Shown here: positions 31,714-39,995 of the stretch, piece by piece
How positions within the stretch are numbered: position 1 is the first letter of the stretch
Layout of the letters: every line of letters starts with the position of its first letter
DNA from: Aquimarina pacifica
Lineage (GTDB): Bacteria; Bacteroidota; Bacteroidia; Flavobacteriales; Flavobacteriaceae
Direction of reading: 5' to 3'
DNA: 64,000 nt
Assembly: GCF_000520955.1 (NCBI RefSeq)
Contig: NZ_JACC01000010.1
Location: 1 to 64,000 of the forward strand
Position numbers and translations under genes: made by a program
Notes under the pieces: generated by a model
Database searches by the model: none
The model's input: the letters and a program-made list of their open reading frames with translations, nothing else
What the model was told of the DNA's origin: nothing

Positions 31714-32030
31714 AAGCTTCCGATTTATGTTGTTTCTAACAATATCACCATAGCAACAACAGTATAAAATCAATTAAAACAGTCCTTTTTATTGCATTTG
31801 GGACATCGTCTCTAAATTATAATTTCTGAATTCTGGGTAAAACTCTGTTTTATTTTTTTCAACGAAAAATAAAACAAATTAACAACAGGCTTTTTAAAAC
31901 CTAACAGTGTCATTTTTTATCAAAAAAAAATATTTTTTCTTAATAAAGTAAATACCTTTAAAATAAACACAACTTTTAATGATAAATTATTAATTTGGAA
32001 TACACAATTAAACTCATATATCAATCACAC
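31714..32030. other. Gap between cobC and xylanase genes
   Basis: This is an AT-rich gap. A perfect 12-bp stem made mainly of A and T, TGTTTTATTTTT (31846-31857) with its partner (31865-31876), has a 7-nt loop and lies 130 bp after cobC. No T-run follows on the plus strand, so a terminator role is uncertain. No TAnnTTTG promoter for the xylanase gene was found. Confidence 0.4.
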
Positions 32031-35000
32031 ATGAAAACTTTAAAATTTCTTTTTTTTCTTTTCGTATTAACCAACGTAACTGCCCAAATTCCAACTGGTG
32101 GCAGTGAATTAATTATTTCTTCAGTCGCTGATTATGGCTTTTATGGATCAGACTTTGGGTACAAAACAGACATTAGTGCAACACCTCTTCCTTTTGATGA
32201 AGCAGCAGAAATCACAGTCACCACGGCACCTACGAATCCCTGGGAAATTGCAGTAACATTTAGTCCACAGAGCGGCTACGACACAGGAGATGTCCTTCTT
32301 ATGGCTTTTTATGCAAGAACCACAGAATCCTCTCTAGGAACCGGTACAGGCGAACTAAGAGCGGTCGTCGAAGAAAACACGGTTTACACAAGCGATCTTG
32401 GTCAGAATGTAACCATTGGTTCAGATTGGCAATTGTACTATTTGCCATTTGTTTCTGGTCAAACATTATCGGCATCACAAATTAATATGGCACTACAGTC
32501 AGGGTTTCCAGAACAGGTTGTAGAAATTGCACAAGTTCGTCTTATTAATTATGAAAACACATTGACTATTGACGATCTTCTAGACACCAATAATCAAATC
32601 CCTGAGGGAGGTACCGATCTCATTTCTTCTTCTATAAATGATTATGGTTTTTATGGAGAGGTATATGGATATGTAAATAATGTCACTATAACCAATCCTC
32701 CTTTTACTGAGGCTGCAGAGATTACCGTTACTGAACAACCTACTAACCCTTGGGAAATTGCAGTAACATTTAATGCCGAAGAAGGATATACAGCCGGCGA
32801 TGTAATGCTAATGACATTTTATGCTAAAGCGACAGCCTCTTCTGATGATTCAGGAAAAGGGTTAGTTACAGCAGTAATTCAGGAAAATACAGTATACACT
32901 AGTGACCTTTCTAAAAATTTGGACATTGAAACTGATTGGAAAGCTTTCTACCTACCTTTTGAAGCTAGTCAAACCCTAGAAGCCTCTCAAATTAATATAT
33001 CATTGCAACTTGGACACCTTGCCCAAATAGTAGAAATTTCTGAAGTGCGTCTAATTAATTATAAAGATTCGTTAGCTCTTGAGGATTTACCAGATTCTGA
33101 AGCTATAGACGAAGAAGATGGAGAGCTAATTTCATCTGAAATTACAGATTATGGCTTTTATGGAGATGACTATGGATATAGAACAAATATTGAAATCGAA
33201 GGGCAACCTTTTACAGAAGGTGTAGAACTTACCGTTACTTCGCAACCTGATAGCCCTTGGGGTATTGCATTGACATTCCCTGCGCAGGAAGGATTTAAGA
33301 CGGGAGATGTAATGCTTATGTCTTTTTATGCAAGAACGACACGGTCTTCTCTAGAAAGTGGAGAAGGGTTTCTAAGAGCAATTGTTGAGGAAAATACTAT
33401 ATATACGAGTTCTCTCGGCCGCGATTATAGTATCAGCGATGAATGGAAACTATACAACCTTCCTTTTGTTGCAAATCAAACTTTAGAGGCTTCGCAAATA
33501 AATATAGGGCTACAAATAGGATATCCAGAACAAGTGCTAGAAGTAGCACAAGTACGTCTAACAAATTATAAAGATACCATTGAGGTAGAGGAACTTCCTT
33601 TAACCGAAGTAACCTATGTTGGTAGAGAAGATGATGCAGCATGGCGTGCAGAAGCAGATCAAAGAATCGAACAATATAGAAAAGGAAATATGGCAATCTC
33701 AATTGTTAATCAACACCAAATTCCTTTGTCGGGTGCTAATGTAAAAGTGACCATGAAATCACATCACTTTGGTTTTGGTACCGCTGTAGATGGGGCAACC
33801 TATTTGAGTAATAGTAGATATCGAGATAGCATAAGTTCTCTTTTTAATACCGTCGTTTTAGAAAATAATTTAAAATGGGAATTATGGGCCGATGATACTC
33901 AGAAAGATATTACTAATCAAACAATACAAGCGTTTAATGATCTTGGTATTCCTGTAAGAGGACATGTGCTTGTTTGGCCTTCATTTAGATACAACCCAAG
34001 TTTTGTAGAAGACTATGCGAATGACCCTGAGGGATTAAGAACGTTAATCAATACACACGTCACCGATATAGCAAGTACGTATGAGGGCAAATTATTAGAC
34101 TGGGATGTTATCAATGAAACTTTTAACAATACCGAGTTTATGGATATTCTCGGATATGATGAAATGGCCAAGTGGTTTCATTTGGCAAGAGAAAATGACA
34201 CCATTGCCAAAATGTACATGAATGATTTTGGTATTTTAGGTAGTGGTGGTATTAATACAAGACACCAAGATCATTATTATGAAACGATACAAAGAATAGA
34301 GGCAGATGGAGCACAGATTGACGGTATTGGTATGCAAAGCCACTTTGGAGCCCTATTAACAGCTCCTGTGCGACTATATAGTATACTTGAACGCTATAGT
34401 GAATTGAATAAAGAAATAAAAATTACTGAATTTGACATTGCTATTAATCAAAGAGATGTTCAGGCAGACTACACCCGTGATTTTATGACAATGGTCTTTA
34501 GCCATCCTAGCGTTTCTTCCTTTTTAATGTGGGGATTTTGGACCGGAAGACATTGGCAACCCGATGCCGCAATGTTTGATCTAGAATGGAATGCAAGACC
34601 AAATTATGAAGCATATCGCTCTTTGGTTTTCGAAAAATGGTGGACTCCCGAAACTATTTACAGTTCTGATACAGGCACAAAAGAAATCAATGGATTTCTG
34701 GGAACATACGAAGTTGAGATCGAATATAACGGCAAAGTCACCACACAAACCATTGCAATAGATGAAGCAGGAACAACCAAAGATATTGTAATAGAAATAG
34801 AAACAGAATCTTTTGTTCCTGAGGCTAATAAAACCTATTATATTACCAACCCACATTATGATGTTTATTTGGGATCATATGGTGGTGAAGCGCCATTTGC
34901 GTCTTCCATCCTTAGAAACGTAGCAGCTGTAAAATGGAAAATTACCCCATCAGATAATGAAGAATATTATTATTTGGATTGTGTTGGTGGTAGAAGAAAA

Positions 35001-35504
35001 CCTAGATTAAGAAGCGACAATACTCCTTATGCTGATATGGAAAGTAATTTATTTACCGAACCATCTGCTCAATGGAATTTGACTCCTACAGGGAATGGAA
35101 CCTATCTAGTAACTGCTTTTGAAAATTCACTCAACAGGTTACAAATCGATGAAGCCAAAAAAGTAAAAACTTCAACTACTCTATACGCCGGAGAATCTGA
35201 ACAGTTTATGATTGTAGATTCATCGTCATCTATCAGAAATACTAAACCATTCAATAAACCTATTTCAAAAATGAAAGTATTTCCGGTTCCTGCAAAAGAA
35301 AAACTTACTATATCGATCCCACATTCAGAAAATTACGACACATTAGAAATTAATGACTTTATGGGAAAAACACTGCACATACAACGTATTTTATCAAAAG
35401 AGGATATTTCTGTAGATACCAGCAAATACAAACCAGGAGCTTATGTTTTAAAAATGAAAAACAGTAATGGAGCAAACGAGTTTATACATTTTGTAATTAA
35501 TTAA
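32031..35504 (+). CDS. Secreted GH10 endo-beta-1,4-xylanase with three N-terminal modules and T9SS tail
   Basis: This 1,157-aa protein has a signal peptide (MKTLKFLFFLF...TAQ). Three tandem modules of about 169 residues follow (about 20-530), each with DYGFYG, NPWEIAVTF or SPWGIALTF, and an ASQIN motif; they look like carbohydrate-binding jelly-rolls. The GH10 catalytic domain (about 540-880) has acid/base Glu696 in WDVINE and nucleophile Glu800 in KITEFDI. A further beta-rich region (about 920-1065) and a T9SS sorting domain (about 1075-1157) complete it. It should cut xylan outside the cell. The ATG at 32031 is chosen because it opens the signal peptide; a TTG at 31995 is in frame but unlikely. 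No SusC/SusD genes are nearby. Confidence 0.93.
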   Translation: MKTLKFLFFLFVLTNVTAQIPTGGSELIISSVADYGFYGSDFGYKTDISATPLPFDEAAEITVTTAPTNPWEIAVTFSPQSGYDTGDVLLMAFYARTTESSLGTGTGELRAVVEENTVYTSDLGQNVTIGSDWQLYYLPFVSGQTLSASQINMALQSGFPEQVVEIAQVRLINYENTLTIDDLLDTNNQIPEGGTDLISSSINDYGFYGEVYGYVNNVTITNPPFTEAAEITVTEQPTNPWEIAVTFNAEEGYTAGDVMLMTFYAKATASSDDSGKGLVTAVIQENTVYTSDLSKNLDIETDWKAFYLPFEASQTLEASQINISLQLGHLAQIVEISEVRLINYKDSLALEDLPDSEAIDEEDGELISSEITDYGFYGDDYGYRTNIEIEGQPFTEGVELTVTSQPDSPWGIALTFPAQEGFKTGDVMLMSFYARTTRSSLESGEGFLRAIVEENTIYTSSLGRDYSISDEWKLYNLPFVANQTLEASQINIGLQIGYPEQVLEVAQVRLTNYKDTIEVEELPLTEVTYVGREDDAAWRAEADQRIEQYRKGNMAISIVNQHQIPLSGANVKVTMKSHHFGFGTAVDGATYLSNSRYRDSISSLFNTVVLENNLKWELWADDTQKDITNQTIQAFNDLGIPVRGHVLVWPSFRYNPSFVEDYANDPEGLRTLINTHVTDIASTYEGKLLDWDVINETFNNTEFMDILGYDEMAKWFHLARENDTIAKMYMNDFGILGSGGINTRHQDHYYETIQRIEADGAQIDGIGMQSHFGALLTAPVRLYSILERYSELNKEIKITEFDIAINQRDVQADYTRDFMTMVFSHPSVSSFLMWGFWTGRHWQPDAAMFDLEWNARPNYEAYRSLVFEKWWTPETIYSSDTGTKEINGFLGTYEVEIEYNGKVTTQTIAIDEAGTTKDIVIEIETESFVPEANKTYYITNPHYDVYLGSYGGEAPFASSILRNVAAVKWKITPSDNEEYYYLDCVGGRRKPRLRSDNTPYADMESNLFTEPSAQWNLTPTGNGTYLVTAFENSLNRLQIDEAKKVKTSTTLYAGESEQFMIVDSSSSIRNTKPFNKPISKMKVFPVPAKEKLTISIPHSENYDTLEINDFMGKTLHIQRILSKEDISVDTSKYKPGAYVLKMKNSNGANEFIHFVIN
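32131..33640 (+). repeat. Three tandem ~169-codon modules in the xylanase gene
   Basis: The DYGFYG-encoding sites at about 32131, 32641 and 33148 are 510 and 507 bp apart. The modules share phrases such as PWEIAVTF, GDVLLM/GDVMLM and QVRLINY/EVRLINY, with similar DNA. The third module is the most changed (SPWGIALTF). They represent internal duplication of a binding-type domain. Confidence 0.85.
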
Positions 35505-38658: not shown

Positions 38659-38706
38659 AATTAAGAATTAATAAAATAGTCAATAACTCCTAGTTGTTTG
38701 TTAATA

Positions 38707-38755
38707 ACTATGGTTTTGGGCATACCAAAATCCTAGTATATTACAATTATATTTG
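38707..38755 (+). promoter_or_regulatory. dnaN promoter candidate with overlapping hairpin
   Basis: TATATTTG at 38748-38755 matches the -7 consensus. Just upstream, a hairpin of 13 bp with two imperfections spans 38707-38737 and contains a TTTG at 38715-38718. The spacing from TTTG to the -7 is 29 bp, longer than usual, so the -33 is doubtful. The hairpin could be an operator. Confidence 0.4.
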
Positions 38756-38772
38756 CGTGAAACTAGTACAGT

Positions 38773-38847
38773 AATTAGCTATATAAGTGCATAAATCAAG
38801 CATTAATAATGCATAAAAATGCACTTAATAACAAACGATAGCTAATT
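38773..38847 (+). promoter_or_regulatory. Triple-nested stem-loop in the dnaN leader
   Basis: Three perfect stems are nested. AATTAGCTAT (38773-38782) pairs with ATAGCTAATT (38838-38847), AAGTGCAT (38785-38792) with ATGCACTT (38819-38826), and GCATT (38800-38804) with AATGC (38808-38812). The element lies between the likely -7 box and the dnaN ATG at 38877, so it would be in the 5' leader. No known riboswitch is recognised. It may regulate dnaN translation or RNA stability, or be a protein-binding DNA site. Confidence 0.6.
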
Positions 38848-38876
38848 CAGTCTGAAAACCAGAAAATAAAAAATAG

Positions 38877-39995
38877 ATGAAATTTATAGTATCCAGTTCA
38901 TACTTACTTAAGCAATTACAGGTATTAGGCGGGGTAATTAGTAATAGTAATACCCTACCGATTTTAGACAACTTTCTGTTCGAATTAGATAACAATTCAC
39001 TTACAGTTTCTGCCTCTGATCTTGAGACAACTATGTCTGCAAAACTGGAAGTAGAATCAGGTGATCAGGGAATTATGGCCGTACCTGCTAAGCTCTTACT
39101 AGAAACGTTGAAAACATTTCCTGAGCAGCCACTAACTTTTGTTGCCTCAGACAACAACACCGTAGAGATTAGTTCTAACCATGGTAAGTACGCTTTGGCA
39201 TATGCAGATGGAGAGGAGTTTCCCAAAGCAGTAGAATTAGAAGACCCAAGTGCCACAAATATTTTAGGAGATATTTTGGCTACTGCCGTGAGTAAAACAA
39301 TTTTTGCCACTGGTAATGATGATCTAAGACCTGTAATGAGTGGTGTGTTTTTTCAACTCTCTACAGAAGGACTTACATTTGTAGCCACTGATGCTCATAA
39401 ACTTGTCAAATATACAAGAGAAGATATACAGGCATCGCAATCGGCAGAATTTATTATGCCTAAAAAACCTTTGAACTTATTAAAAGGAATTTTGGCAGGA
39501 AGTGATACAGAAGTACTCATAGAATACAACGAATCAAATGCAAAATTTTCTTTTGATCAAACTCAATTGATCTGTAGATTAATTGATGGTAAATACCCTA
39601 ATTATGAAGCGGTAATCCCTAAAGAAAATCCAAATAAACTTACTATAGCAAGAACACAATTTTTAAACTCTGCGCGAAGAGTATCGATTTTCTCAAATAA
39701 GACCACACACCAAATTCGCTTAAAAATAGCAGGTGCAGAATTGAATATATCTGCAGAAGATATAGATTATTCTAACAAAGCAGAAGAACGACTAACTTGT
39801 GATTATCAAGGTGATGACATGCAAATAGGTTTTAATTCTCGTTTCTTAAGTGAGATGTTAAATAATCTGAATGCAGATGAAGTACAACTAGAAATGTCAC
39901 TTCCTAATCGAGCAGGAATCCTTACTCCTATTGATGGATTAGACGAAGGAGAACACGTTACAATGTTAGTTATGCCTGTAATGCTTAACAGCTAA
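38877..39995 (+). CDS. dnaN: DNA polymerase III beta subunit (sliding clamp)
   Basis: This 372-aa protein with three clamp domains forms the dimeric ring that holds the replicative polymerase on DNA. Recognisable parts are LPILDNFLFEL, VSASDLETTMSA, LRPVMSGVFFQL, LVKYTRE, CRLIDGKYPNYEAVIP and the C-terminal MLVMPVML, near the protein-binding groove. The length is normal. It is not next to dnaA, recF or gyrB here, as in E. coli, but dnaN alone is common in Bacteroidota. A strong terminator follows. The leader has an unusual folded element. Confidence 0.96.
   Translation: MKFIVSSSYLLKQLQVLGGVISNSNTLPILDNFLFELDNNSLTVSASDLETTMSAKLEVESGDQGIMAVPAKLLLETLKTFPEQPLTFVASDNNTVEISSNHGKYALAYADGEEFPKAVELEDPSATNILGDILATAVSKTIFATGNDDLRPVMSGVFFQLSTEGLTFVATDAHKLVKYTREDIQASQSAEFIMPKKPLNLLKGILAGSDTEVLIEYNESNAKFSFDQTQLICRLIDGKYPNYEAVIPKENPNKLTIARTQFLNSARRVSIFSNKTTHQIRLKIAGAELNISAEDIDYSNKAEERLTCDYQGDDMQIGFNSRFLSEMLNNLNADEVQLEMSLPNRAGILTPIDGLDEGEHVTMLVMPVMLNS

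Follow-up and report, generated by a model that had tools for sequence, protein, structure and literature searches.

The nested hairpin in the dnaN leader of Aquimarina pacifica appears to be a worn copy of a dispersed start-codon element

In Aquimarina pacifica, a member of the Flavobacteriaceae, the leader of dnaN carries a nested hairpin. On sequence comparison, this appears to be a worn copy, specific to the lineage, of an element of about 90 bases that has not been reported before. The window, by which is meant the whole stretch of 64,000 nucleotides that was analysed, probably holds this hairpin within a degenerate copy of a dispersed leader element of about 86–94 nt that inserts exactly at ATGAA starts. 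A bolder reading, offered only tentatively, is that the element is a mobile leader which recognizes and duplicates ATGAAA start codons and installs a translational toggle before unrelated genes, the copy at dnaN in the window having decayed.

The nested hairpin and its leader

The features of the window's dnaN region are collected in Table 1. A sequence-only reading had described three perfect nested stems of 10, 8 and 5 bp, and the outer and inner stems are as it had them, whereas the middle stem is of 9 bp; its spacing of 29 nt between the end of the hairpin and the dnaN ATG (38877) was likewise borne out. As RNA, the 75-nt hairpin folds at -19.4 kcal/mol (z = -5.56), with none of 200 dinucleotide shuffles folding equally well. 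A z of -5 or lower is reached by about 10 of the 1599 75-nt windows on the forward strand of the whole 64 kb, so that the fold is in the top 1 % or so yet not unique. No terminator-like site was found at the hairpin, and the start region is largely unpaired in the fold of the window's leader (mean unpaired 0.64). The hairpin joins the old leader to the 3' arm of the element and leaves the start region largely open.

The same -7 box precedes nearly all dnaN leaders examined. Since TAnnTTTG occupies -12 to -5 in Flavobacterium psychrophilum (PMC9723704), where dnaN is also predicted to have its own promoter (PMC5682007), the box places the predicted transcript start at about 38760, and the nested hairpin is predicted to begin at about +14. 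A further hairpin reported at the promoter (I2) was found, with arms of 22 nt that are 73 % complementary, but it lies upstream of the predicted transcript start and is therefore not RNA. Upstream of the promoter (38679–38709) there are also two direct repeats, GTYAATAACT, 21 bp apart, a pair that occurs once in the genome. At that place of the promoter TGTTAATAA is nearly invariant in the approximately 70 Flavobacteriaceae promoters listed; it resembles the DnaA box TTATNCACA, an identity that was rejected because there is no cluster of the motif near dnaA.

Table 1. Features of the dnaN leader region in the window
Feature	Position	Strand	Basis or remark
-7 box TATATTTG, dnaN promoter, Bacteroidetes primary sigma type	38748-38755	+	sequence; consensus and spacing from PMC9723704
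Ancestral short dnaN leader (pre-insertion)	38756-38790	+	homologue of the entire leader (26-35 nt) in congeners of the short class; alignment A11
Outer stem, 5' arm AATTAGCTAT	38773-38782	+	in ancestral leader, outside the element copy
Middle stem, 5' arm TAAGTGCAT	38784-38792	+	9 bp, perfect
Putative degenerate element copy, 86 nt	38791-38876	+	alignment A11; right end abuts the dnaN ATG
Inner hairpin GCATT-AAT-AATGC	38800-38812	+	GCATT 38800-38804, AATGC 38808-38812; 5 bp
Middle stem, 3' arm ATGCACTTA	38819-38827	+	pairs with 38784-38792
Outer stem, 3' arm ATAGCTAATT	38838-38847	+	10 bp, perfect; homologous to the element's P1 3' arm
CAGTCTG, remnant of anti-start CATCTG (P2 5' strand)	38848-38854	+	column homology in A11
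A-rich unpaired ribosome-loading region of the element (predicted)	38855-38876	+	sequence, fold, alignment A11
dnaN, DNA polymerase III beta clamp, start ATGAAATTT	38877-39995	+	ORF; TIGR00663 E 3.6e-74

The exact triple-hairpin shape is private to this genome, no match to it having been found at dnaN in any other of the 66 Aquimarina genomes searched. Among the aligned Aquimarina leaders the outer stem does not covary, nor does the pairing register of the relatives in the same alignment, and no consensus structure is predicted for the aligned Aquimarina long dnaN leaders; the covariation check proposed for the triple hairpin as a conserved structure thus went against it, the structure not being kept in relatives. 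By alignment column, the outer arms read AATTAGTCAC and GGCGAATT in relatives and AATTAGCTAT and AGCTAATT here. Alignment with one congener (L168) hinted that the outer stem was born by a template switch with a 7-nt insertion; this origin was set aside when alignment with another (L086) showed the AATTAG of the 5' arm to be ancestral, so that a single template-switch event is not required.

Comparison of dnaN leaders from 63 Aquimarina and 161 other Flavobacteriaceae shows that they are mostly short (22–50 nt; 113 of the 224 examined) or long (100 nt or more), and that intermediate lengths of 50–99 nt also occur. Long leaders outside Aquimarina cluster at 120–132 nt, and among the 21 long leaders of Aquimarina nine measure 110–129 nt and 11 measure 160–179 nt. 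Thirty-six short leaders match the leader of a long relative, and because 31 of these 36 matches continue into an internal copy of ATGAAA, a long leader can be read as a short one plus one unit lying between two copies of ATGAAA. On the dnaN tree, which is weakly resolved, at least 33 changes of the long class are counted, and the sister lineage of the window's genome (L170/L172) has a leader of 26 nt.

Compared with other leaders, the long dnaN leaders show no clear excess of folding energy (mean z -1.17 in 51 non-redundant long leaders vs -0.85 in 52 controls); a first control was too small, and the larger one gave similar values. Sequestration of the start as a general trait of long dnaN leaders was rejected, since it reaches significance in a subset of Aquimarina only and is lacking from the window and from other genera. 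Also rejected was a long-range interaction between the 5' end of the leader and early codons of dnaN, which is modest in one clade and has a z of 0.18 in the window. Separate structures occur elsewhere among dnaN leaders. Intermediate Aquimarina leaders of 58–61 nt (L007, L008, L098, L103, L106, L191 and relatives) precede a GTG start codon and have two small hairpins (GCTATT/AATAGC and ACTGT/ACAGT) with some two-sided changes; another mid-type leader (L190, genome G381) contains an inserted palindromic segment of about 110 nt that is unlike the start-codon element; and Psychroserpens-type leaders (L024, L040, L044, L047, L061) carry a different short hairpin directly after the promoter, with a two-sided change from A-U to G-C in its second pair.

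A dispersed element at start codons

The element is about 86–94 nt long and has three conserved parts: two helices, the hairpin P1 and the helix P2, together with a short ORF upstream of the gene. As a consensus drawn by eye, the intact Aquimarina form is ATGAAATAAGCCATAACAATTATGTTGATACCCACCGATATGATTATATGGCGATTCCATCTGACCATTAAAAAACAATAAATATAAACAG followed directly by ATGAAA. The upstream ORF is often ATGAAATAA, and often comprises just two codons (ATG AAA stop) or encodes MKHP. In P1, GCCAT pairs with ATGGC and the helix can be extended to the ATG of the upstream ORF. In P2, CATCTG pairs with CAGATG (in general form CAUNUG/CANAUG), taking in the start codon of the gene. P2 is a weak helix, of about -5 kcal/mol, and its pairing is well kept: 99.1 % of its cells are paired in alignment A13, where the central N pair over 19 rows is CG in 14, GC in three, AU in one and UA in one with zero mismatches, and that pair is complementary in 45 of 48 units found by pattern. 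Intact copies thus have what is looked for in a translational riboswitch, an alternative covarying helix that includes the start codon; in the window it is weak.

Evidence that the element is dispersed comes from covariance models built on separate sets of copies. The leader hairpin of Algibacter-type dnaN genes covaries, and in the dnaN-derived model R2, which contains no ATG or start codon, 18 of 22 pairs have two-sided changes (0/500 shuffles). Across 149 genomes of the family R2 finds matches in 37, with up to 21 per genome. Twenty R2 matches were read, 19 of them at loci of G116 and the other in G061; every one abuts an ATGAA start, although in one case the frame so opened has only four codons. 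Counting the copies away from dnaN that were read in G116 and G061, among the top family loci and among Aquimarina loci, 52/52 adjoin an ATGAA start codon; at L339 the longest frame begins a few bases beyond the element-adjacent start codon. Because ATGAA starts are common in the window (they open 19 of its 30 ORFs that reach 200 aa), it is the start-codon position, rather than ATGAA alone, that is striking. A further model, R3, was derived solely from copies that precede other genes, in other genera; it matches dnaN leaders both in Algibacter-type genomes and in Aquimarina, and does so at the exact place (L181, E = 1e-10; L091, 3e-6; L003, 2e-5; L086, 5e-4; L096, 0.004; L168, 0.014). Matches at E <= 10 occur in 52 of 57 Aquimarina genomes, with copy numbers of 0–45 per genome, and outside the family, within the class, matches at E <= 0.01 occur in 12 of 118 genomes of the phylum. 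The genes behind the element are unrelated and have no common theme; they include coaD, fabG, the genes of an ABC transporter ATPase, of the iron-sulfur subunit of succinate dehydrogenase/fumarate reductase (sdhB) and of 3-hydroxybutyryl-CoA dehydrogenase and, as named by eye, those of aspartokinase, nadD, a Fur-like regulator and others.

Among congeners, the site at sdhB is filled in G015 and G030 and empty, with clean flanks, in G014, G018, G029 and G010. Empty sites read ...GTTATAAATGATATATT/ATGAAAGTAAC, and the stop codon of the upstream frame lies just ahead, so that this insertion is between adjacent genes and probably inside an operon. The sdhB unit begins with ATGAAA and ends just before ATGAAA, an arrangement in which a target duplication and an element end are indistinguishable, since one copy may be the element's own. 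Clean filled and empty sites, a mark of miniature inverted-repeat elements (MITEs), are thus found at both dnaN and sdhB; a terminal inverted repeat was not seen by eye. Some R2 matches stand in tandem at 89 nt. Upstream of a gene resembling glycogen synthase (named by eye; L292 in G189) three tandem 89-nt copies match at 98 %, each ending CACATGAA. Searches of phages and plasmids gave no match to the element. The sequence-only reading knew of no described dnaN leader element of such shape, and this held: the leader structure has no counterpart in Rfam, a scan of the leader and the element loci against Rfam 15 gave no family above the gathering threshold, and a literature search of incomplete coverage found no described element of this kind. 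That reading had also stated that many genomic copies, as of a mobile repeat, would refute its interpretation; such copies are what the family displays but not the window's own genome, where no second similar copy of the window's sequence was found.

For the window copy, the case is one of homology. The putative copy has the size of a unit and lies directly before an ATGAA start, and the window's leader aligns over its full length with further long dnaN leaders from Aquimarina (A11), among them the congener leaders L086 and L168, which do match the model. Its ancestral part aligns with the 5' part of L086 (0/300 shuffles equally good) and with the short leaders L085 and L002 (p = 0.01), and the copy itself aligns with the element consensus (p 0.006–0.009) and with the unit of L168 (p 0.005; 0.005–0.02 over the comparisons with L168). 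At its left end ATAAATCAAGC stands in place of ATGAAATAAGCC; ATGAAA has become ATAAAT and the upstream AUG is gone. The P2 duplex (CAGTCTG/TAGATG) is weakened to -2.3 kcal/mol vs -6.8 in intact Aquimarina copies. R2 (4.9 bits) and R3 (10 bits, in another register) miss the copy even without filters. When a profile was made from the dnaN units, 38825–38873 came out at the top of the 64 kb, but with an E of only 0.27; membership therefore rests on the alignment with congeners, and descent of the window copy from the element is likely, not proven. The window's genome holds three weak family matches, the best at E = 0.01 (R3). One candidate from a profile of dispersed copies (34126–34195, E = 0.0018) lies inside a xylanase-like ORF (31995–35504) and was read as chance.

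Possible action and competing explanations

One and the same CAU takes part in P2 and in the closing of P1 onto the upstream ATG. The base of P1 and P2 are hence mutually exclusive, and their competition for this CAU suggests a translational toggle. Such a toggle, acting in cis in the mRNA, would fit the finding that flavobacterial initiation is tuned by structure around the start codon and not by Shine-Dalgarno pairing (PMC6847099). With the anti-start CAU paired to the AUG of the element's own upstream ORF, at the base of P1, the AUG of the gene would be free; with the CAU paired to the gene's AUG, in P2, it would be closed. Initiation might then be tuned by the passage of ribosomes, or by a small RNA or a factor that acts on P1. 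The element would spread, and would be lost probably by deletion between the ATGAAA repeats. Against this account stand the weakness of P2, the missing of the window copy by R2 and R3, the lack of a clear excess of folding energy in dnaN leaders as a class, and the fact that no transposase or other mobilizer was found; gene conversion or horizontal transfer may be what dispersed the copies. At dnaN in the window the loss of the upstream AUG and the weak P2 would mark a decayed copy, in which the 3' arm, after small changes, may have come to pair with the older leader and so to form a perfect, lineage-specific hairpin; the dnaN leader of this genome would probably be a constitutively open leader or a relic.

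Other explanations differ in what they make of the hairpin and of the family. It is unlikely that the hairpin is a chance or mutational palindrome, functionless and without tie to the element, in a leader that evolves freely. Several points speak for such an origin: the triple hairpin is confined to this genome, its outer stem does not covary among congeners, there is no consensus fold, other leaders fold comparably, and one event of template switching during replication can make perfect stems (PMC8794818). Yet the whole leader aligns with those of element-bearing congeners (with L086, 0/300 shuffles), the 86-nt unit matches the element in length and position, and the ancestral AATTAG dispenses with a one-event origin of the 5' arm. 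Rather more weight, though still short of an even chance, goes to the proposal that in this genome the 5' hairpin serves solely as an mRNA stability or spacer element, which would suit a strong fold near the predicted 5' end, the largely unpaired start region and the lack of a terminator, but congeners with short leaders manage without the hairpin.

The family itself may not be mobile. It could be a cis-regulatory RNA of wide occurrence that serves a large regulon, either in the manner of a riboswitch or through a shared factor that binds it, and that is gained and lost with its genes. The conserved internal sequence, the covariation of P1 and P2 and the strict position at start codons would all be expected of it; against it stand the lack of a common theme downstream, the range of 0–45 copies within one genus, the clean filled and empty sites and the tandem copies, and it too is considered improbable. 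Least credible by far is an autoregulatory leader specific to dnaN that senses replication or growth, the role first imagined for the hairpin as a tie between clamp synthesis and either process. The conserved own promoter and the long leader in many genera would agree with this, but copies of the element precede dozens of genes unrelated to one another, so that it is no device peculiar to dnaN; half of those dnaN leaders that were examined are short, and start sequestration is confined to some Aquimarina and is absent in the window. A degenerate copy of a dispersed element accordingly stays the preferred account of the window's hairpin.

Comparison with known systems

Small interspersed repeats are a known kind of sequence, common in bacteria. 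To our knowledge, none lands exactly on start codons, and the exact placement at the start codon together with a covarying helix that includes it is, as far as we know, new. Bacteroidetes lack Shine-Dalgarno initiation, and an element on a start codon has to serve as the region in which translation of the host gene is initiated. If P2 is functional, the element would be a natural means, in such a phylum, by which translational control could spread to genes that are unrelated. Should the mobile-leader reading be true, many unrelated bacterial genes would be under one portable translational switch. With the element, the choice of start codons in Bacteroidetes, and the way in which a repeat can target them, are open to direct testing.

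Structured leaders as such are already known in the family, as 64 structured 5' regions have been reported in F. psychrophilum (PMC9723704). Flavo-1 RNA (RF01705) is similarly a structured RNA motif widespread in Flavobacteriaceae; the Rfam scan gave no match to it at the element loci, even at E 0.5–1. Translational riboswitches and other start-sequestering leaders resemble the element in having alternative helices that compete for the segment closing the start. Unlike them, it has no shown ligand pocket or common pathway, is dispersed before unrelated genes and is not in Rfam 15. With attenuators based on upstream ORFs or leader peptides it shares a short upstream ORF within a folding leader, but its ORF is often of two codons or MKHP, there is no terminator and the genes are unrelated. 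The closest likeness is to repeats of the MITE/REP type (REP, ERIC, BOX, RUP and Correia), which are likewise short, dispersed, palindromic and non-coding, lack a transposase ORF, vary in copy number and occasionally stand in tandem. Those repeats are known mainly from intergenic DNA, with some in 3' untranslated regions (PMC12306157), whereas the element described here stands strictly at start codons, between ATGAAA repeats of which the start codon is a part, and carries with it a short upstream ORF and a start-codon helix.
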